Positions 1,471 through 35,876 of a stretch of DNA of 39,927 nucleotides are shown here, piece after piece; positions within the stretch are counted from its first letter, which is position 1; the number at the start of each line of letters is the position of its first letter. Both the position numbers and the translations under genes were made by a program. The notes below the pieces were generated by a model. That model was not told where the DNA came from, did not search any database, and saw only the letters and a list, made by a program, of their open reading frames with translations. The DNA comes from a virus. The stretch lies in the IMG/VR virus record IMGVR_UViG_3300037109_000145, positions 1 through 39,927 of that record; one strand, given 5' to 3'.

Positions 1471-2718
1471 TCAGGCGGCGCGGTCGAAGCGCTGGGTCTT
1501 TTCGCGTTCGGGCGTGGAGATGCCATCGATCGCGGGGAAGGGCTCCTTGGACGAATGGCTGAGGCTGGTGACCTGTTTGCCGGCGCGGGCGGCATTCCAG
1601 GCTTTGATCACGAGCCCGTAGCGGGTCACCTTACGATCCTTCGAGTCCACCCCGCCGCGATCGGCGAGCAGGCGCTCGCGGAGATGATAGACCGGGCTGA
1701 CTTTGGTCAGGCCGACACCCTCGCAGAGTGCCTCGAAGAAGTGATCGCGCAGCTCCGCGTCGGTGGTACCGAAGAGATAATGAAAGAAGGCCGCCTCGGA
1801 ACGCAGCAACATGAGGTCGATCTTGTTGCCGCCGGCGACCGTCCAGCCCACGGAAGAACGGAGCGACGCGTGCTTTTCGAGCAGCGGGGCGATTTCGCTA
1901 TTCTCCATTACTTTCTGCGCGCCGAAGGGCACGCCGGCCAGCCAGCCCCGACCCCAGTACCAAAGCAGTTTCAGCGCAGCGGCGGTGATGCTCGGGTTCG
2001 CTTCGCCCAGCATTTCGAGCGTGTGTGCGCCCTTGCGCATTTCGCCGACGTCCATGCTTTGCTGGGCGATGTCGGGCAGGCCGGCCCGGACTTCGAGGGT
2101 GATCGGGCAGTTGGCCAGGATGACCGCCATCAACCGCGATTGGCCGTCGATCAGCCGGCCCGTGATCGAGAACTTGATCGTCTCGCCATTGACCGCCCAG
2201 CGGCCGGTCTTCATGGCCGTGGCGAAGCGCCGGATCTTGGCGCGCGACGGATGGCGGTTGCCCGAGTTGAAGGCCAGCCAGGCCGTGGCGATCGCCGGTG
2301 TGACTTCCACCTGGAAGCAATGCACGCGACCCGTGATCTTGGCGTGTTGCTGCTCAAGCCAGAGGCCGATGTTCGAAGTGGGCATCGTGAGGCCGGCGCC
2401 CGAACGCGTCGGTTCCGCGGGAGCAACCGCTGCCGGCGGATCGATCTCGACGGTCGGCGTCTCCGACTTCGGAGCGGGGCCGGCGGCGGCATCGGCGGTG
2501 TGAGATGACACTTTCACACCATATTTTTCAGCCAGAGCTGCCAGCGCGTCCTCATTGAACTGACGATATTTGGAGGAAGACTCCTCCAGGATGGCGGCAA
2601 CGACGGCGGGATCGCATTCGCGCTTGCGGCAGACATAGGCGACGTTGGCAGAGGGGAAACGCGCCAGATGCAGCAAGGCAGGCATCACGGCGGAGAGGAT
2701 TTTGGCGGTGATTTTCAT
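1471..2718 (-). CDS. ParB-like (DGQxRL) DNA-associated protein
   Basis: 415 aa. The N-terminal 75 residues are helical and followed by a Pro/Ala-rich linker (about 76-110). The core (about 135-230) has the ParB/Srx-like pattern seen in many phage proteins: a VTPAIATAWL helix, NRHPSR, MKTGRWAVNGETIKF, then DGQSRLMAVI (DGQSRL at 191-196) and a following Asp-Gly-Arg-type loop (SMDVGEMRKG). ParB-fold proteins of this kind bind DNA or hydrolyse CTP or DNA; which of these applies here cannot be read from sequence. The C-terminus (about 240-415) is helical and unassigned. It is likely an early regulator or DNA-processing protein. Confidence 0.65.
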   Translation of the reverse strand: MKITAKILSAVMPALLHLARFPSANVAYVCRKRECDPAVVAAILEESSSKYRQFNEDALAALAEKYGVKVSSHTADAAAGPAPKSETPTVEIDPPAAVAPAEPTRSGAGLTMPTSNIGLWLEQQHAKITGRVHCFQVEVTPAIATAWLAFNSGNRHPSRAKIRRFATAMKTGRWAVNGETIKFSITGRLIDGQSRLMAVILANCPITLEVRAGLPDIAQQSMDVGEMRKGAHTLEMLGEANPSITAAALKLLWYWGRGWLAGVPFGAQKVMENSEIAPLLEKHASLRSSVGWTVAGGNKIDLMLLRSEAAFFHYLFGTTDAELRDHFFEALCEGVGLTKVSPVYHLRERLLADRGGVDSKDRKVTRYGLVIKAWNAARAGKQVTSLSHSSKEPFPAIDGISTPEREKTQRFDRAA

Positions 2719-2727
2719 GGGGAACGG

Positions 2728-2892
2728 CTATTTGCGAGAACGGTGGTTATAGCGAAATTCGGAGACGCCGGCGGCGATCCAGGAGAGGACGATGCAGATT
2801 GCGATCAGCGGTGACCCGATGATCACGAGCAGGGCGACCAGGAGGTTAGTCAGCCAACGCAGCAGGATCTGCTCTTCTGGGTTTGTGCTCAT
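2728..2892 (-). CDS. Small single- or double-pass membrane protein
   Basis: 54 aa. The ATG (2890-2892) overlaps the stop of the lipoprotein gene. The middle is strongly hydrophobic (LLVALLVIIGSPLIAICIVL, about residues 17-36) and extends to about residue 42. It ends in a basic tail (EFRYNHRSRK). Size and form fit a small holin, antiholin or membrane anchor. It is the last member of a three-gene set with a lipoprotein and a Cys-His-Glu peptidase-like protein, so a role at the envelope is likely. Lysis or superinfection exclusion are both possible. Confidence 0.6.
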   Translation of the reverse strand: MSTNPEEQILLRWLTNLLVALLVIIGSPLIAICIVLSWIAAGVSEFRYNHRSRK

Positions 2893-3017
2893 TTCGGGGC
2901 TTGTTCGAACTGCATGGGGATCGGGGCGGGCAAGGTCGGGCCTTTCGGCGCGGTCGCGCAGCCGCCGGCGAGGGCCAGCAGCGCGACGAGAAGGGCACTG
3001 GAAACGAGTCTTTTCAT
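2889..3017 (-). CDS. Small lipoprotein (Rz1-like form)
   Basis: 42 aa precursor. It has a basic start (MKR), a hydrophobic core (LVSSALLVALLALAG) and a lipobox LAGGC with Cys at residue 20. The mature part is short and Pro-rich (TAPKGPTLPAPIPMQFEQ). That is the build of an outer-membrane spanin of the Rz1 type, or of a small exclusion lipoprotein. It is joined by ATGA overlaps to the peptidase-like gene upstream and the membrane protein downstream. A separate lipoprotein that looks like a spanin exists in the late operon (14232-14513), so this may not be the lysis spanin. Confidence 0.65.
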   Translation of the reverse strand: MKRLVSSALLVALLALAGGCATAPKGPTLPAPIPMQFEQAPK

Positions 3018-3472
3018 GGGACGAAGGGTTTGCTGACCGAGGTGATCTCGGCCGGCGTGAAGGCAAAGAAGGTCTGCGTCTGCGGTTCCCAGGGCGTCCA
3101 GAGGCCGTCGAGCAGCCATAGGTCGACCTCGTGCCAGCCGCGACCGTCGCTGCGGAAGTATTTCGCCCAGGCGACGGCGATACTCTCGACGTCCGCCGGG
3201 ATCTCCGTGTCCGTGCTCTGGCGAAAGAGATCCACGGCCTCCATCGCCGCCCGGATCGCGTAGTGCTCGCACTGGTTGCCGCGCACCGCGTACACGGTCT
3301 GGCCACGCGCCGCGAGGTAGGCGCGATAGTACGGAGCGAACTGCTCCACCCAGGCGCGCGTGATGGCGAGATAGCGGGCGTTCGTGATCTCGATCGCCAG
3401 CGGCTGCAGCGCGGGGAACTGCGCCAGCAGCAGCCCCTGCAGTTCGACGTTGGTATGGACGGCGTAGGGCAT
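3014..3472 (-). CDS. Transglutaminase/cysteine-peptidase-like protein
   Basis: 152 aa. A Cys-His-acid arrangement is visible: Cys68 in GNQCEHYAIRA, His114 in GRGWHEVDLWL, and Glu129 in WTPWEPQT. A Cys at a helix start, a His on a strand, then an acidic residue in an EPQ turn is typical of transglutaminase-like cysteine peptidase folds found in some phages. Its substrate is unknown. A peptide or peptidoglycan cross-link is possible, because the next two genes encode a lipoprotein and a membrane protein and the late operon has no clear endolysin. It has no signal peptide. The start at 3472 gives a compact protein with a hydrophobic first helix. Confidence 0.5.
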   Translation of the reverse strand: MPYAVHTNVELQGLLLAQFPALQPLAIEITNARYLAITRAWVEQFAPYYRAYLAARGQTVYAVRGNQCEHYAIRAAMEAVDLFRQSTDTEIPADVESIAVAWAKYFRSDGRGWHEVDLWLLDGLWTPWEPQTQTFFAFTPAEITSVSKPFVP

Positions 3473-3474
3473 GG

Positions 3475-3690
3475 CTACTTCCCCGGACGCTGCGCCACCG
3501 CGGTCTTGCCCGGCCCTTCGATCGTGGCGGTGCGGACTTCTTTCATGCCGAGCAGGAGCCCGAGCTTTTTCATCGTCGCCAGGCGGAAATTGATCTCGTC
3601 GGCAGACGGATATTCGATGTGGCAATTCGCTTCGTGGATCCGGATGAGCTGCGCGCGTTCGGTGAGTTCTTCTTTGGTGGGAGTGGGCAT
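3475..3690 (-). CDS. Hypothetical small helical protein
   Basis: 71 aa, starting MPTPTKEELTERAQLIRIHE. Largely alpha-helical and charged, with one Cys (HEANCHIEY) and a hydrophobic patch (MKKLGLLLGM). No known family recognised. It lies 2 nt upstream of the peptidase-like gene. Its start codon is directly preceded on the coding strand by a TTTCACTCTCACTTT-type repeat and lacks a purine-rich ribosome-binding site. Confidence 0.6.
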   Translation of the reverse strand: MPTPTKEELTERAQLIRIHEANCHIEYPSADEINFRLATMKKLGLLLGMKEVRTATIEGPGKTAVAQRPGK

Positions 3691-3725
3691 AAAAGTGAGA
3701 GTGAAAGTGAGAGTGAAAGGGGGGA
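3691..3725 (-). repeat. TTTCAC/TCTCAC pyrimidine repeat before a start codon
   Basis: Coding-strand C/T-rich tandem repeat of TTTCAC and TCTCAC hexamers that runs straight into the ATG at 3690. The same motif lies before the gene at 13691 on the other strand and inside the signal peptide at 29088-29112. Confidence 0.85.
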
Positions 3726-4037
3726 TTAGGAACGACCGGCGGGGCGGAAGAGGGCGGCCTCGGCGAGGTGACTGGCGAGGCTGCCTGTGGGCAGCGCGGC
3801 CGGACCGGTGGGCAGCTCCTGGGGCTCGACGATTTCAACGTTCTCGAAGCTGAGACGCGCGATGCGGGCGGCGTCGGTGGGCGTGGCGTAGTTGCCCACG
3901 TCGTTGATTGGATCGTCGCCTTTGATGCGCATGGAGAACCCGCCGCGTTCGTTGGGCACGATCAAGACGACGGCATCGTTGGCGACGGGCGGGCGCAGCG
4001 GCGTGGCCGTGCGGGGAGTGAGGAATGACCAGGTCAT
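3726..4037 (-). CDS. Hypothetical early protein
   Basis: 103 aa, not recognised. The N-terminal half looks like a small beta domain (NDAVVLIVPNERGGFSMRIK, then DDPINDVGNYATPTDAARIA). The C-terminus is Pro/Ala-rich and low in complexity. No Cys, signal or membrane segment. The ATG at 4035-4037 is preceded by a block of TCAGTCCC octamer repeats (4051-4100) in place of a Shine-Dalgarno site. It is separated from both neighbours by short repeat-filled gaps, unlike the tightly overlapped genes upstream. Confidence 0.6.
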   Translation of the reverse strand: MTWSFLTPRTATPLRPPVANDAVVLIVPNERGGFSMRIKGDDPINDVGNYATPTDAARIARLSFENVEIVEPQELPTGPAALPTGSLASHLAEAALFRPAGRS

Positions 4038-4050
4038 GGCGAAGAGAAAA

Positions 4051-4100
4051 GGGATTGAGGGACTGAGGGACTGAGGGACTGAGGGACTGAGGGAGAAAGG
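4051..4100 (-). repeat. TCAGTCCC tandem octamer block
   Basis: On the minus (coding) strand this is about five tandem TCAGTCCC units with a few changes, ending 14 nt before the ATG at 4037. The same octamer, in coding sense, precedes four or more plus-strand late genes. Confidence 0.9.
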
Positions 4101-5935: not shown

Positions 5936-6369
5936 GCTGCACCGCCTTTCTTCGCCGGTGCGATCGCAGCCTTGCCGGCCGCGGTGAGTTTTGCTCCGAA
6001 GTAGGGATGGTGCGCGCCGGCCGGATAGACGCCCATCGCATCGCCGATCCAGATCAGATCCGGAGAGCGTTTCTGGATGGCGCGCAGCGTGGCAGCGAGC
6101 ATGGGGTTTATTACGTCGCACCCCTCGCCGACCGCGGCCAGAGCGCGCTTTTCCTTGGCGGTGAGCTTGACCTGTTTGTTCGGTTTTGAGCTCAGATCGA
6201 CGGGGGTATGGTTCTCGGCCTCCGTCCAATCCTTGTGCTCCACGAAAGCGTAGAAAGTCGCTCCGCATTGGCAGGCGAGTTGAATTTCCGTGGCGGTTTC
6301 AGCCGCGAGGTAGCCCTTGATGTCGGTCGCGTCGAGTTGCTCGCCGCATTTGGAACAATAGAGGTTCAC
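5932..6369 (-). CDS. Zinc-ribbon early protein
   Basis: 145 aa from a GTG start (6367-6369) overlapping the MuB-like stop. The N-terminal 40 residues form a zinc ribbon (YCSKCGEQ with Cys5/Cys8, and ACQCGATF with Cys33/Cys35). A linker and a helical region follow (KLTAKEKRALAAVGEGCDVI), then a domain with WIGDAMGVYP and HHPYFGAKLTAAGKAAI near the end, which resembles a small winged-helix arm. Possibly a DNA- or protein-binding early factor. Not matched to a named family. Confidence 0.6.
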   Translation of the reverse strand: MNLYCSKCGEQLDATDIKGYLAAETATEIQLACQCGATFYAFVEHKDWTEAENHTPVDLSSKPNKQVKLTAKEKRALAAVGEGCDVINPMLAATLRAIQKRSPDLIWIGDAMGVYPAGAHHPYFGAKLTAAGKAAIAPAKKGGAA

Positions 6370-7586
6370 ACTGCACCCCCTTCGTCGTCTGCCACGGAGG
6401 GCGGTTGATAGGTGTCGGCCCCTTCCAGGTCGGCCAGGGTGATGCGATCGCGGTCGTCGAGCTGTGCGAATTTCTGCGCGCGGTTGAGTCGCGCGAACAC
6501 GATCCGGATGCGCCCGTCGATGCGGCTCCAGCGTTCCAGGTATTCGAGTGCGCCCGTGCCATCGTGCAGGTGATAGGCGCGCGCGATCGCGCGCAGATCT
6601 GGCTCCGGGGTGTGCGCCGGCAGGCGGAGGATGTCGCTGAGTCCGCCCATCCGCCCGAGGAATTGTTCGAAGTAGCCCTTGGCGCGTCCGGCCGTGAGAT
6701 CGTCGCGGAAAAAATCGTCGGTAAAACTCAGGATGAAGGTCGCCCCGGTATCGTCCTGCAGCTCCAGCAGGTAGTTGAACACCGGCTGGTCAGCGCCGGC
6801 GTGGGGATGGTACAGGCGCTGCACGTTGTCGATGATGATGCATTTCTCAGCGGTCACGTTCTCCCGGATCGACTCTTCGCGCGCGGAAGCGTTGTTGCCG
6901 ATCTTCGCGTGATACTGGGCGGCCAGTTTGCGTTGAAAGGCCACGATCGAAGGCCGGGCCGGCGCCTCGAAGTGCACCATCTTTCCGTGGTTGTTGAGCA
7001 GGCGCAGATATTTGAAAATCGCGCTTTTCTGCGCGCCGGTCGGACCGGTGATCCCGCCGAATTTGCAGACCGCGCCAGGCGCCCAATGCTCCAGGATGAA
7101 ACTGCGCACGAAACGATAGGTCGGGGTCTCGATGAAACCGAGTTTGCCCTGCGTCGTCATCTCCCGGTCGTGCTTGCGCAGCGCCGCCACGATTTCGCAC
7201 CAAGCGGCAGGGTTGCCCTCGATGCGGCTCGTTCCTTTCTGGCCCTCCCTCGGCTTGCGCAGTCGAAAGTAATACCCCTGCAGAACGTTGTTAAAGTACG
7301 CCCGCGAGTAGCTGTAGCCGAGTTTTTCCGCAATCGCGCGCAGCAGTTCGAGGTTACCCTGGCACGCCTCGCGGCAAAAGCCCTGCGTCCAGATCGTCTC
7401 GGTTCGGGCCGGCTCGGGATAGTGCGCCACCATGTGCTCGAGGTCGGCGGCGCTCTTCTCGAGGAAGGTGCGCGGAGGAACCTTCTCCTTGAATGGGGCG
7501 AGCGCGGTGGACTCGTCGCGCACGACAACTTCGACGGCGGGCTTGTCCGCGGCGACGGTTTGTGTTTTGGTCTCGGGCATGTTCAT
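6366..7586 (-). CDS. MuB-like transposition target-selection ATPase
   Basis: 406 aa, somewhat longer than Mu B (312 aa). In Mu-like phages the B ATPase coats target DNA and delivers it to the transposase. Here an N-terminal helical region (about 40-110, with SYSRAYFNNVLQGYYF) precedes an AAA ATPase. The Walker A region is GITGPTGAQKSA (181-188 GPTGAQKS) and Walker B is KCIIIDN (Asp253). The usual Gly before the Walker A Lys is Gln here. Later motifs include FILSFTDDFFRDDL. It follows the transposase directly, as in Mu. Identification rests on order, ATPase motifs and size. Confidence 0.85.
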   Translation of the reverse strand: MNMPETKTQTVAADKPAVEVVVRDESTALAPFKEKVPPRTFLEKSAADLEHMVAHYPEPARTETIWTQGFCREACQGNLELLRAIAEKLGYSYSRAYFNNVLQGYYFRLRKPREGQKGTSRIEGNPAAWCEIVAALRKHDREMTTQGKLGFIETPTYRFVRSFILEHWAPGAVCKFGGITGPTGAQKSAIFKYLRLLNNHGKMVHFEAPARPSIVAFQRKLAAQYHAKIGNNASAREESIRENVTAEKCIIIDNVQRLYHPHAGADQPVFNYLLELQDDTGATFILSFTDDFFRDDLTAGRAKGYFEQFLGRMGGLSDILRLPAHTPEPDLRAIARAYHLHDGTGALEYLERWSRIDGRIRIVFARLNRAQKFAQLDDRDRITLADLEGADTYQPPSVADDEGGAV

Positions 7587-7649: not shown

Positions 7650-9716
7650 TTAACGAGAGAGTGCGGCAATCTGCTCCTCGGCGTGGGCGGCGAGTTGGGC
7701 GGCGCGGATGATGTTCTTCTTGGCGCGCTCGCCGGTGGCAGCCTTCGGCAGCGGTGTGCGTTTGGCCGTGTCGGCGCGCGTGCCGATCTGCGCGAGGATC
7801 TCGGTGGCGTCTTCGGCGGCCTCGGCATCGCGGCGCATGAGGGGCGCGGCGGCGCGCAGTACGGGCACGAGGCGCTCGCGGGCCGCGGCGGTGCGCTGGC
7901 CGCACGCCTTGGCGTATCCTTCGGTGTCGCCGCGCGTCGGCACGAGCGTGCGTGGGGCCCAGCCGAGATAGCGGCCCTTCGCGTCGCACACGTGCAGGCG
8001 CTCCGGATCGAGCATCGAGACGAAGGTCGCGTAGCGCTCGCCGTCCGGAAGCACGGTCTTGTGCCCTTCCTCATCGACGGCCGTGCCCTCGTAGTGGTGC
8101 TCGCCGGCGCAGAGGCGGTCGTCTTCGAAGTGGAAGCGGCCGTCCTTGGCCACGCGGTGCTCCACGGCCAGGTCCTGGCCGAGCATCTCGGGGATCAAGT
8201 GCGCTGGCAGCGTGGCGAGCGACGGGCGCACGCACTCGGTATAGACCTCGTGCGGACTCATCCGGCGGCACGTGGTCAGCCGCGGATCGGCGAGCAGCGT
8301 CGCCTGGATCGCCGCACGCACGACATCCGGATACTCGGCGAGCGCGGTCTGGCGTTTCCACGCCTCGGCCGGCGACAGCCGGAAGAGCGGGGCCATGAAG
8401 CCGCACGCCGCCCAGCCCTCGAGATCGTGATCCTCGCGGCGGTTCATCCGCTCCTGGATGGAGTCGAGCAGCTCGGCCACCTGGGCGAAGGGCGGCGTCA
8501 CGCCGGCCGCGATCAGCTCGCGCAGGTTGCGGGGAGCAAGCAGCGCGCACTTCTGCAGCTGCGTGAGGTGGTGTTTGCGGCCGTGCAGCTCCTCGGGTTC
8601 GTTCACCCGCGCGATGCTGCCGCTCTGCGCCGGCAGCAGCAGGCGGTCGCCCGTTTCGTTGTGCACCAGGTTGCCGAGGGATTCGAGGGCGGCCTTGATC
8701 TTGAAATTGCCCTTGGGCTGCCCGCCGTAGAGCCCCTGCGCGATCGGCGAGCCCGTCGTCTGGCCGCGCTCGATGCGCAGCGTGCCGCCCGAGAAATCGA
8801 AGAGCAGCTTCTCCACGCGCTCGTCGACGGTGGCCGTGCCGAGTTCCATCACGAGCAGGCAGCCCTCGGGGTTGTACCCGCGATTGCCCAGGATGTGCGC
8901 GAGCAGGAAAAGCATCTCGTGCGCTTTCAGGCGCTCCATCTTCCCGGTCGTGTCGTTCAGGATCTCGGGCTTCATGCCGCGGCCGATCTGGCAACCGGAG
9001 AGCAACTCCACGCAGTGGAACTGCAGCACGCGCCGCATGCCCTGCTGGCCGGGCACGCTGCAATAGAGGTCGTGCCAGATATCGTCGAAGAGCAGAAACG
9101 ATCCGGGCCGGATCCCCACGCGCGTCTGCAGCACCGAGGGCAGCAGGTCGAACGCCGCGCCCAGGCCGATGCGCGCCGCGCGCTTCGTGAGCGCCGGCGG
9201 GCGGTTCTTTTCCGCCATGAGGTTGGCATACGAAAGGCCGCGCGGCAGATCGTGCGGCCGGCCCTCGCTCGGGAAACCGGGGATGGGTGCTCCGCCCCGC
9301 CAGCCACGGACCAGCTCGCGATGCGCGGCTCGGCCGCGGCCCATGAAGCGGTAGAAAAGCTGGTGCCAGAAAATCACCGTCTCCGGAGCGAGCCCGCTGG
9401 CGACGGACGGGACGCGAGCGCGATTGATCAGCGAGGTCCAGACGCGGCCACCGGCCACCCACCGGCCATAGTAAAGCTTCCGCAACGCGCCCTCCGAATA
9501 CCGCCGGCCGGCATGCGTGCGCAATACCTCGGCCGCCAGCGCCGCGCGGATATTTCCGGAGGCATCAATCCGTTCCATCGCCGCCAGTCGCGCCTTGAGA
9601 TGAGCCTTCTCTTCGTCCGGCAGCCGGCCGTATTCCGTCGAGGCGACCATCGCGCGATAGACGGCTGACTTTGTGGCGACCAGGGCGGTATCTTCGTAGA
9701 GCGAGAGCGTCATCAT
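7650..9716 (-). CDS. MuA-like DDE transposase
   Basis: 688 aa (Mu A is 663 aa). It joins phage ends to target DNA for integration and replicative transposition. The N-terminal ~190 residues hold helical DNA-binding parts. The catalytic rve core has LLFDDIWHDL (Asp211/212), CLLVMELGTATVDE (Glu291) and FKIKAALESLGNLVHNE (Glu345). The second-to-third spacing of 54 residues is close to the 56 of Mu A. Position two appears to be Glu, not Asp. The C-terminal part has the beta-barrel-like segment and a basic tail (ERAKKNIIRAAQL). The start is MM at 9711-9716; the leader has repeat-type sequence, not a purine-rich ribosome site. Confidence 0.9.
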   Translation of the reverse strand: MMTLSLYEDTALVATKSAVYRAMVASTEYGRLPDEEKAHLKARLAAMERIDASGNIRAALAAEVLRTHAGRRYSEGALRKLYYGRWVAGGRVWTSLINRARVPSVASGLAPETVIFWHQLFYRFMGRGRAAHRELVRGWRGGAPIPGFPSEGRPHDLPRGLSYANLMAEKNRPPALTKRAARIGLGAAFDLLPSVLQTRVGIRPGSFLLFDDIWHDLYCSVPGQQGMRRVLQFHCVELLSGCQIGRGMKPEILNDTTGKMERLKAHEMLFLLAHILGNRGYNPEGCLLVMELGTATVDERVEKLLFDFSGGTLRIERGQTTGSPIAQGLYGGQPKGNFKIKAALESLGNLVHNETGDRLLLPAQSGSIARVNEPEELHGRKHHLTQLQKCALLAPRNLRELIAAGVTPPFAQVAELLDSIQERMNRREDHDLEGWAACGFMAPLFRLSPAEAWKRQTALAEYPDVVRAAIQATLLADPRLTTCRRMSPHEVYTECVRPSLATLPAHLIPEMLGQDLAVEHRVAKDGRFHFEDDRLCAGEHHYEGTAVDEEGHKTVLPDGERYATFVSMLDPERLHVCDAKGRYLGWAPRTLVPTRGDTEGYAKACGQRTAAARERLVPVLRAAAPLMRRDAEAAEDATEILAQIGTRADTAKRTPLPKAATGERAKKNIIRAAQLAAHAEEQIAALSR

Positions 9717-13690: not shown

Positions 13691-14113
13691 ATGAAATTCA
13701 TCCTCCGCCTGGTCTCTGTTCTCGGGCTGCTCCTCTGCGGCCTTTGCGTTGTTTCCGTCGCCTTCGCTCAAGACGCCGCGCCCGTCGTCGCGCCGCCGGC
13801 CGGCACGGACTTCATCACGCAGTTCATCGTCGGCTTCGCCAGCACGCATCCGTGGCTGGTCACCGTCGCCTCGATCATGGGCGCGTTTCGGCTGCTGTTC
13901 AAACCGATCATGGGCGCCATCGAAGCCTACGTTAAGTCCACGCCCACGACCGCCGACGATGCTTTCTTCGAGACGGTCGAGCACTCAGGCACGTACAAGG
14001 CCCTCGCCTGGTGTCTCGACTGGTTCGGCTCGGTGAAGATCGGCCCGCAGTTCACGGCGAAGCCGGAAGGCCCGACTGTCATCGTTCCGCCTGCCGGTCC
14101 GGCTGCCGTCTAA
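13691..14113 (+). CDS. Membrane protein, holin candidate
   Basis: 140 aa. Two hydrophobic stretches: FILRLVSVLGLLLCGLCVVS (about 3-22, signal-like, followed by VAFAQDA) and a second around PWLVTVASIMGAFRLLF (about 53-69). The C-terminus is soluble with Pro/Val at the end. The size, two helices and the place directly before a spanin-like pair fit a holin. If the first stretch is cleaved after AFA, one helix remains. Only context separates the options. Confidence 0.5.
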   Translation: MKFILRLVSVLGLLLCGLCVVSVAFAQDAAPVVAPPAGTDFITQFIVGFASTHPWLVTVASIMGAFRLLFKPIMGAIEAYVKSTPTTADDAFFETVEHSGTYKALAWCLDWFGSVKIGPQFTAKPEGPTVIVPPAGPAAV

Positions 14114-14416
14114 ATGAACCCGTTCGCGCTGCTCACTGCCGGCCTGCAGGCGCTCGTCGCCTACCTGCAGCTGCGGTTGGTAAGCGCGCGGTACGACCTC
14201 CAACGCCGCATCGAATCCGACATCGCCGCCGATGAAAACGAAATCACTGCTCTGCGCGCTCGTGGCGATGACGCTAGCCAGCGCGCTGCTGACCGGCTGC
14301 GCGACCGTGTCCTCCGCGCCAACGGCATCGCGGCAACTCTACCAGCCGCGAGTCCTGCAGCTGAAAGCCGGCCAGCCGGTGCCGACGCTGGCGGGAACGT
14401 ACACCCCGCAGGTTGA
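14114..14416 (+). CDS. Inner-membrane spanin-like protein (Rz-like)
   Basis: 100 aa, beginning directly after the previous stop (TAAATG). An N-terminal hydrophobic segment (FALLTAGLQALVAYLQLRLV) is followed by a charged coiled-coil-like helix (YDLQRRIESDIAADENEITA, then RAADRLRDRVLRA). The C-terminal third is overlapped in another frame by the lipoprotein gene at 14232. That nested layout is the hallmark of Rz/Rz1 spanin pairs. The anchor is less hydrophobic than usual, so the call is moderate. Confidence 0.5.
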   Translation: MNPFALLTAGLQALVAYLQLRLVSARYDLQRRIESDIAADENEITALRARGDDASQRAADRLRDRVLRANGIAATLPAASPAAESRPAGADAGGNVHPAG

Positions 14417-14513
14417 CGAGACCTGGCACAGCGCCGCCGCCTATCAGGATCTCGAAGCCAAGTTAATCGATACCGCCGCCGCCCTCGCCCAGGAACGCAA
14501 TCGACCGAAGTAG
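14232..14513 (+). CDS. Outer-membrane lipoprotein, spanin candidate (Rz1-like)
   Basis: 93 aa. A lipoprotein signal with basic start (MKTK), core LLCALVAMTLASAL and lipobox LLTGC (Cys23). The mature part has TASRQLYQPRVLQLKAGQPV and ends in a helix (LEAKLIDTAAALAQE). The first 185 nt lie inside the 14114-14416 gene in the +1 frame, so the two are translated from the same stretch. Spanins join inner and outer membranes in the last step of Gram-negative lysis. Rz1 proteins are usually more Pro-rich, so another envelope role is possible. Confidence 0.55.
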   Translation: MKTKSLLCALVAMTLASALLTGCATVSSAPTASRQLYQPRVLQLKAGQPVPTLAGTYTPQVDETWHSAAAYQDLEAKLIDTAAALAQERNRPK

Positions 14514-22929: not shown

Positions 22930-23760
22930 ATGGATGAAATCGAGGCACAACGTCCCTTGCCCAGACCGCGGCCCGTCGTCGGCTGGCCGGGCGGCAAGCA
23001 GCGGCTCCTGAAGCACATTCTGCCGCTGATCCCCGAGCACACGCTTTACTGCGAGGTGTTCGGCGGCGGCCTCGCAGTGTTTCTCGCCAAGCCGGAGAGC
23101 GACGTCGAGGTCATCAACGACATCCATGGCGACCTGGTGCGCTTCTGGCGCTGCTGCAAATTTCATATCGACGCGCTGATCGACGAGCTCGACCTGGTGC
23201 TCAACTCGCGGCGCGAGTTCGAGGACTACGGACAGCAGGTCGGCCTCACGGATATTCAGCGCGCCGCGCGCTGGTTCATCCGCAACAAACTTTCCTTCGG
23301 CGGCATGGGCGCCAACTTCGCCATCTCGCGCCAGCATCCCATCGGCTCGCGGGCCCGCCGGCTGCTCGCGATCCGCTCGCTCAACCATCGCCTCGATCGC
23401 ACGACGATCGAGGAGCGCTCCTGGGATCTGATCCTAGCGGCTTACGATCACCCGGAGGGCTTCTTCTTTTTCGATCCGCCTTATCTCGATGGCGCCGGCC
23501 CGGCCTATTCCGGCTGGAGCGAGCACGAGCTCACGCGGTTCTGCCAGCGCCTGCCGAAGCTCAAGGCGAAGTGGCTCTTTTCGTTCCAGGACTGCCCGCA
23601 GGTGCGGGATCTCCTGCCTGGCTACGCGCTCAAGCCCATCTCGCGCGCCAATGGCATCGGCAACAACGGCCGCCAGCGCGAGGGCCGCGTCTATCGCGAG
23701 GTGCTCATCTGGAGCCAGCACGACGAGCTCGCCGCCGCGCGGAAGGGGAAATCGGCATGA
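22930..23760 (+). CDS. D12-class DNA N6-adenine methyltransferase (Dam-like)
   Basis: 276 aa. Methylates adenine in DNA with S-adenosylmethionine. N-terminal GWPGGKQRLLKHILPLIP and the SAM-binding EVFGGGLAVF (about 42-51), then EVINDIHGDLVRFWR, RNKLSFGGMGANFA and the catalytic DPPYLDGAGPAYSG (about 182-195) followed by RFCQRLPKLKAKWLFSFQD. This is the Dam/DpnII-type D12 arrangement. Its likely target is GATC by family, not shown. It sits inside the head operon, 2 nt from the gene before and overlapping the next, so it is expressed late, probably marking packaged DNA against restriction. Confidence 0.85.
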   Translation: MDEIEAQRPLPRPRPVVGWPGGKQRLLKHILPLIPEHTLYCEVFGGGLAVFLAKPESDVEVINDIHGDLVRFWRCCKFHIDALIDELDLVLNSRREFEDYGQQVGLTDIQRAARWFIRNKLSFGGMGANFAISRQHPIGSRARRLLAIRSLNHRLDRTTIEERSWDLILAAYDHPEGFFFFDPPYLDGAGPAYSGWSEHELTRFCQRLPKLKAKWLFSFQDCPQVRDLLPGYALKPISRANGIGNNGRQREGRVYREVLIWSQHDELAAARKGKSA

Positions 23761-35357: not shown

Positions 35358-35876
35358 ATGAAACCATTCTTCGCTGAACAATCCCGCCAGGACGCACTCT
35401 GGGCCGAGGGCAAAAAATGGGAGCATACGCCGTTCTTCGCCAACGCCGCGTCGCTCGGTCACGGCGTCGGTTGTGTCGAGCTCATCCACGAGATGATGAC
35501 TGCGCCCACGGTGGCCGCGACGCCGCGCCTCGATCCGCTGCCACGCTATACGCTCGACCACGGCCATCACGCCACGAACTCGCAGCTCCTGCGCTTCCTC
35601 TTGGATCACCCGGCGTTGCGCGGTCGCCTCGTGTTCGTGCCTTTCGAGGCTCCACGCCTGCCGGGCGACATGCTCGGGGTCATGAGCGGCCAGCTCGATC
35701 ATCACCTCGCGTGTGTGCTGCCCTGGAACAAGGTCATCCACGCGATCGAGGGGCCGGGCGTGGTCATTCACGAACTCGCCGACGACAAGCTTACCCGGCG
35801 CACGCTCTACGTGCTGCGCTTCCTGGAAGTCTTTCCCGCCTCACCGTCTTCCGGGTCTTCCTCGTCTTCCGTATGA
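35358..35876 (+). CDS. NlpC/P60-like tail tip peptidase
   Basis: 172 aa. KKWEHTPFFANAASLGHGVG then CVELIHEMM gives the NlpC/P60 N-terminus with catalytic Cys39; His115 or His116 (QLDHHLACVLPW) and His128 (VIHAIEG) are the remaining candidates. GTA and D3112-like tails carry such peptidases between the hub and the J-like protein, where they probably cut peptide cross-links in peptidoglycan during entry. The Ser-rich C-terminus (SPSSGSSSSSV) is low in complexity. The end overlaps the J-like ATG. Confidence 0.7.
   Translation: MKPFFAEQSRQDALWAEGKKWEHTPFFANAASLGHGVGCVELIHEMMTAPTVAATPRLDPLPRYTLDHGHHATNSQLLRFLLDHPALRGRLVFVPFEAPRLPGDMLGVMSGQLDHHLACVLPWNKVIHAIEGPGVVIHELADDKLTRRTLYVLRFLEVFPASPSSGSSSSSV

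Follow-up and report, generated by a model that had tools for sequence, protein, structure and literature searches.

We report that three overlapping genes in the early operon of an uncultured phage form a real, conserved module with a putative function. As judged from sequence profiles and a structure model, the first gene product (152 aa) is a very divergent MOA-type (Agglutinin_C/Lectin_C_term) papain-like cysteine peptidase, and together with the tiny lipoprotein encoded directly after it represents a recurrent phage gene pair. We consider the chances about evenly balanced that the trio constitutes an envelope-lysis module relocated into the early operon.

The window, i.e. the whole stretch of DNA that was analysed, comprises 39,927 nucleotides (positions 1 to 39,927 of IMG/VR record IMGVR_UViG_3300037109_000145). 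On sequence grounds the source is a Mu/B3-like transposable phage; its TerL, encoded by a rightward gene, is 60% identical to TerL of Pseudomonas phage B3. The trio and its surroundings are as follows:

1471..2718, minus strand: downstream operon gene, 415 aa (phrog_5931, E 8e-49)
2728..2892, minus strand: 54-aa small membrane protein with a cationic C-terminal tail (ORF, hydropathy)
2889..2892, minus strand: ATGA stop/start overlap, lipoprotein to membrane protein (sequence)
2889..3017, minus strand: 42-aa lipoprotein (ORF; a similar tiny lipoprotein directly after the peptidase in nine lineages)
3014..3017, minus strand: ATGA stop/start overlap, peptidase to lipoprotein (sequence)
3014..3472, minus strand: 152-aa predicted MOA-type (Agglutinin_C-like) papain-fold cysteine peptidase (ORF, residues, hold-out profile, AF2, Foldseek)
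3475..3690, minus strand: 71-aa operon gene upstream of the peptidase, separated from its start by 2 nt (ORF)
6366..7586, minus strand: MuB-like transposition ATPase, early-operon marker (AAA_22, E 2e-10; weak Phage-MuB_C)
7650..9716, minus strand: MuA-like transposase, early-operon marker (33-34% identity to the same-position genes of L003 and G016)

A first-pass annotation had placed three ATGA-linked genes at 2728-3472 among early genes, and this arrangement holds: the minus-strand ORFs 3472-3014, 3017-2889 and 2892-2728 are linked to each other through two overlaps of sequence ATGA, and they share strand and operon with the MuA-like and MuB-like genes. The same annotation had named Cys68, His114 and Glu129 (of EPQT) in the first product, all of which are found at these places in the translated 152-aa ORF, and had called the other two products a lipoprotein and a membrane protein, in agreement with the n-region, h-region and lipobox (LAGGC) of the 42-aa ORF and with the approximately 32 hydrophobic residues of the 54-aa ORF. 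The per-codon coding scores are 0.33, 0.21 and 0.24 for the 152-, 42- and 54-aa ORFs, respectively, while out-of-frame ORFs of like size inside known genes reach at most 0.06 (n=32); these scores and the conserved pairing described below rule out chance ORFs. Scanning for promoters and terminators gave a number of sites not above that in shuffles. Short direct repeats (AGTGAGAGTGAAA-type and GAGGGACTGA-type) are present in early intergenic gaps at 3690-3722 and 4044-4096.

Direct homology searches with the 152-aa protein returned nothing from viral contigs, genome contigs or phage genomes (tblastn), and direct searches against Pfam, NCBIfam, PHROGs and PDB sequences gave no match. Relatives were identified by scanning 2.9 million IMG/VR viral contigs with a DNA pattern that encodes C-[DE]-x-[FY]-A and, 50-60 residues on, EPQT. 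This gave 23 stretches (22/23 in frame within real ORFs) and, after further scans, 56 distinct phage members, in which conservation of the Cys and EPQT columns is built in by the search pattern. The phage genome collection, queried with the proteins of five relatives, gave no matches. A hold-out profile, from which the 152-aa protein was left out, ranked this protein first with an E of 2.5e-6 and 27.4 bits, against 14.1 bits at most in 20,000 shuffles. The family profile (21 rows, the 152-aa protein among them) detects mushroom MOA with an E of 1.3e-11, in an alignment that covers the regions of Cys215, of His257 and of the Glu274 loop. Matches of some members to Pfam Agglutinin_C (PF18021) or Lectin_C_term (PF18022) are close to the cut-off; the relatives straddle the Pfam gathering score and the 152-aa protein has no Pfam match, and its family assignment therefore rests on the phage profile and on structure.

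The AlphaFold2 model of the 152-aa protein has a pLDDT of 92.3 and a pTM of 0.87, and in the Foldseek search every PDB match with E<=0.001 was MOA or PSL1a. The best viral structural match was an 'Agglutinin C-terminal' protein of Pyrobaculum filamentous virus 1. MOA is a genuine protein-cleaving protease, and the catalytic roles of its Cys215, His257 and Glu274 have been described (PMC8244254, PMC4764322). These residues and Gln276 correspond to Cys68, His114, Glu129 and Gln131, and the Cys-His-Glu-Gln active-site set is thus intact in the phage protein; the His114 column is conserved in 56/56 members despite being outside the search pattern. That the three catalytic residues cluster, as first proposed, is predicted by the confident MOA-type fold, in which Cys-His-Glu is aligned with Cys68/His114/Glu129. 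The accompanying label 'transglutaminase-like' was loosely right about the catalysis and wrong about the family, which is of the MOA papain-like type; as a candidate in its own right, a true transglutaminase was rejected, with no Pfam or NCBIfam profile match and a solved TGase only as a weak structural match (E 0.75).

Compared with the protease domain of the fungal chimerolectins MOA and PSL1a, the phage protein has a similar papain-like fold (TM-score 0.66-0.71 by query length), the same Cys-His-Glu with a Gln two residues past the Glu, and similar spacing. In contrast to these, it is a stand-alone protein of 152 aa without a lectin domain, shares approximately 15% identity with them, has a Tyr for Trp208, has lost two near-universal Asp and is encoded in an operon with a lipoprotein. 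LapG and the predicted transglutaminase-like cysteine proteinases (COG3672) represent a calcium-dependent, papain-like envelope protease type to which the phage protein may be likened, and a phage protein annotated as COG3672-type is a weak structural match; the match to LapG, however, has an E of about 1.4, and the only significant structural matches are MOA and PSL1a.

The window copy is an outlier within the family. Two Asp found in 55/56 members are Asn31 and Gln67 in the window protein, in which Asn117 is also changed to Asp. Where MOA has its oxyanion-hole Trp (Trp208, seven residues ahead of the Cys), the window protein has Tyr61, with the Trp present in several relatives. MOA needs Ca2+ or Mn2+ bound beside its active site (PMC8244254). 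We infer that the two near-universal Asp, which lie near the active site, may be metal ligands and that the window copy would then be without the metal switch; having neither of the two, it may have a different mode of action or be inactive.

The mature part of the 42-aa lipoprotein is CATAPKGPTLPAPIPMQFEQAPK (23 aa). Its sequence has an Ala at +2 after the lipobox Cys, which by the E. coli rule leads to sorting to the outer membrane. A tiny lipoprotein is encoded directly after the peptidase in 10/56 members belonging to nine lineages (the window, L020, L025, L027, L031, L034, L038, L062, L067 and L074), with a spacing of -38 to +3 nt, a length of 33-42 aa and a proline-rich mature part of 16-23 residues. 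The tail is frequently Pro-Pro-x-Val/Ile-x-Tyr/Phe-like (TPPVEYVR, MPPVEYSVR, VPPVSYS, KPPFVDY, PPPIEY, RPPRVRF), and PAPIPMQF in the window is a looser fit to this pattern. Of the remaining ORFs in these loci with 110 aa or more, a background that includes spurious ORFs, 0/1,259 have such a neighbour (Fisher p about 9e-15, not corrected for relatedness). Since the paired peptidases share just 15-48% identity (except L020/L025 at 68%), the pairing is old or has been repeatedly selected. The tiny lipoprotein is absent from the other 46/56 members; in many relatives the peptidase itself bears a lipoprotein signal, and in L062 this signal is combined with a separate lipoprotein. With such a partner in some members and such a signal in many, the peptidase thus appears to act in the envelope. 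In L026, L033, L043 and L057 the gene after the peptidase encodes a 314-378 aa protein with a lipoprotein signal at its N-terminus and possibly a fibre-like remainder.

The hydrophobic residues of the 54-aa protein are interrupted by a GSP break and correspond either to a single long segment or to a short hairpin; no known family was matched above threshold (Pfam and PHROGs among the profiles searched). The protein appears holin-like in architecture only, as its hydrophobic profile fits and its early position does not. The full trio is present in L034, where the third gene encodes a 94-aa membrane protein with two segments and starts in an ATGA overlap; this record is a jumbo-phage-like fragment that is uninformative on endolysins, and its trio is apart from recognisable lysis genes. 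As to whether the genes are kept together in relatives, then, peptidase and tiny lipoprotein are so in nine lineages, followed by a membrane protein in L034 and a holin-like one in L067/G016.

Gene order in two relatives links the peptidase to lysis. G016 (L067) is a Mu-like relative with MuA 34% and TerL 47% identical to those of the window and with head and tail genes in common, and its peptidase is found directly by the 152-aa protein (26% identity, E 1.5e-4, with that single record searched). Its gene order is regulator, secreted protein, peptidase, tiny lipoprotein, holin-like gene, gp25, gp26, TerS and TerL, and the same slot holds an endolysin or lysozyme in B3, StopSmel, Aussie, Mwe-Yong1 and Lsp-JY19. 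By position and architecture, the peptidase, the lipoprotein and the holin-like gene thus fill the late lysis slot of G016. In L020 the peptidase gene comes, with an overlap of 4 nt, after a set made up of a holin-like gene and an overlapping i-/o-spanin-like pair. The G016 and L020 copies are hence in a late lysis cluster, while the window copy is in the early operon. Set against the lysis cluster of Mu/B3-like phages (PMC9239132), the G016 peptidase is in the endolysin position before gp25/gp26/TerS/TerL, but a papain-fold peptidase takes the place of the lysozyme-type enzyme and the window copy has moved to the early operon.

The late slot of the window contains a holin-like gene and a spanin-like pair, and an obvious enzyme gene is absent:

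13691..14113, plus strand: membrane protein with a holin-like architecture (two hydrophobic segments on visual inspection)
14114..14416, plus strand: i-spanin-like protein, N-terminal hydrophobic segment followed by a helical part (sequence, position, overlap with the next gene)
14232..14513, plus strand: o-spanin-like lipoprotein, overlapping the preceding gene in another frame (lipobox LLTGC)

These holin and spanin assignments are based on architecture and sub-threshold matches. All family matches of the 13691..14113 protein were below threshold (Pfam and PHROGs among the profiles searched), the 14232..14513 protein resembles an Rz-like spanin at a sub-threshold E of 0.09, and the overlapping pair as a whole (14114-14513, plus strand) has only sub-threshold resemblance to known spanin families. 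The record is truncated at its left end, and an endolysin gene could sit outside it. The proteins scanned from the window, G002, G006 and G016 gave no match to an endolysin family; as a control, Pfam recognised 3/5 annotated endolysins of related phages, and the 'no endolysin' argument is therefore weak and was down-weighted. The 42-aa protein was considered as an o-spanin. It is, like Rz1-type o-spanins, a small, proline-containing lipoprotein of outer-membrane type with a weak Rz-like match (E 0.03), but no i-spanin gene is adjacent (its neighbour, the 54-aa membrane protein, is without a periplasmic coiled-coil domain), the mature part of the tiny lipoproteins is only 16-23 aa, and both L020 and the window have separate o-spanin-like genes, in the window as part of the late spanin-like pair; this candidate was rejected.

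The relocated-lysis reading is favoured because in relatives the late lysis slot contains the pair (G016) or a lysis set adjoins the peptidase (L020). We envisage that the peptidase would be made in the cytosol, as it has no signal sequence, and that either the 54-aa membrane protein or the holin-like membrane protein of the late region would let it into the periplasm, where it would cut envelope peptide bonds. Candidate substrates are murein stem peptides or cross-links, or the proteins by which murein is linked to the outer membrane. At the place where the enzyme works, the tiny outer-membrane lipoprotein would dock or license it; in relatives with the lipoprotein signal on the peptidase, this role might be served within one chain. 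Early production would be tolerable if the enzyme is harmless in the cytosol. The main difficulty is the position of the window copy in the early operon, since confirmed holins are expressed late (PMC9239132). Against this reading are also that MOA cleaves proteins, that 46/56 members are without the tiny lipoprotein and that the trio of L034 is separate from recognisable lysis genes. Unusual lysis logic has a precedent among Mu-like phages, since phage Mu has no classical holin and uses the SAR endolysin gp22, the spanins gp23/gp23.1 and the releasin gp25 (PMC9239132). In its wider form, in which an MOA-type peptidase stands in for the lysozyme-type endolysin, has a tiny outer-membrane lipoprotein as its dedicated partner and is widespread in uncultured phages, with the present copy early and having an altered, possibly metal-independent active site, the proposal is tentative and we hold it to be somewhat doubtful. 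To our knowledge, activity on murein is not known for the MOA family.

The set had initially been suggested to be either an unusual lysis set or an exclusion or envelope-control module; the gene order in relatives favours the former, and the latter, which draws on the early-operon copy, is less favoured. According to it, peptidase and lipoprotein would alter or mask an envelope component, early or in the prophage, and so block a second phage. The location with MuA/MuB fits this, as does the separate holin/spanin-like set retained in the late region, and small phage lipoproteins that block receptors, such as Llp of T5 and Cor of phi80, are a precedent. These receptor-blocking lipoproteins, however, have no need of a protease, a peptidase without a signal cannot enter the periplasm before there is a membrane lesion, and in relatives the pair is found in the late lysis slot; we regard exclusion as unlikely. 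Quite unlikely, in our view, is an early cytosolic protease that serves takeover or anti-defence by cutting a protein of the host or of a defence system, the lipoprotein and membrane protein being unrelated accessories. It would agree with the early operon, the missing signal sequence and the genuine protein cleavage by MOA, and loss of Asp31 and Asp67 could remove a calcium requirement and suit the low-calcium cytosol; but the tiny lipoprotein follows the peptidase too consistently for an unrelated gene, and many relatives are themselves lipoproteins. The outlying residues (Asn31, Gln67, Tyr61 and Asn117 to Asp) might instead mark a decaying, inactive relic of a relocated lysis gene, which is improbable given the intact catalytic C/H/E and EPQT, the confident fold, the open frame with good coding signal and the tight ATGA linkage. 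A peptidase of the virion or of its assembly, with head/tail proteins or, as DNA enters, murein as its target, would suit the genes located between tail-fibre and portal or terminase genes in several phages (L012, L031), but is very improbable with the window copy early, with lipoprotein and holin-like neighbours that are ill-suited to a virion protein, and with another window gene (35358-35876) in the usual tail-peptidase position.

Among the papers searched, none described a phage role for the MOA-type family. Its proteases have been described as fungal chimerolectins, and the present data add a broad phage branch in which a partner gene recurs and gene order points to lysis. If the relocated-lysis reading is true, a papain-fold and possibly calcium-switched enzyme with a lipoprotein helper would be added to the means by which phages break the Gram-negative envelope, and this would account for some phages without a recognisable endolysin.

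Several other genes were noted. The window gene at 35358-35876 (plus strand, 172 aa) is among tail genes and looks, on visual inspection of its Cys and His motifs, like a tail NlpC/P60-type peptidase, with no Pfam match at 0.01; G016 3168-3617 is its positional counterpart. A D12-class N6-adenine DNA methyltransferase (PF02086; gene assignment by eye) is encoded within the head-gene cluster at 22930-23760 (plus strand), and G016 (L092) has an acyl-carrier-protein-like gene (PF00550; by eye) at 665-889, near the end of the tail genes, which is unusual for a phage. Finally, several peptidase-carrying phages have in common a protein in which a holin-like N-terminus is joined to a lipobox-like segment, e.g. 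PFTGCESMS or FMFPGCATI (L037 1322-1930, L067 in its oriented form 3181-3810 and L074 4268-4939), and the two that were tested belong to phrog_29088.
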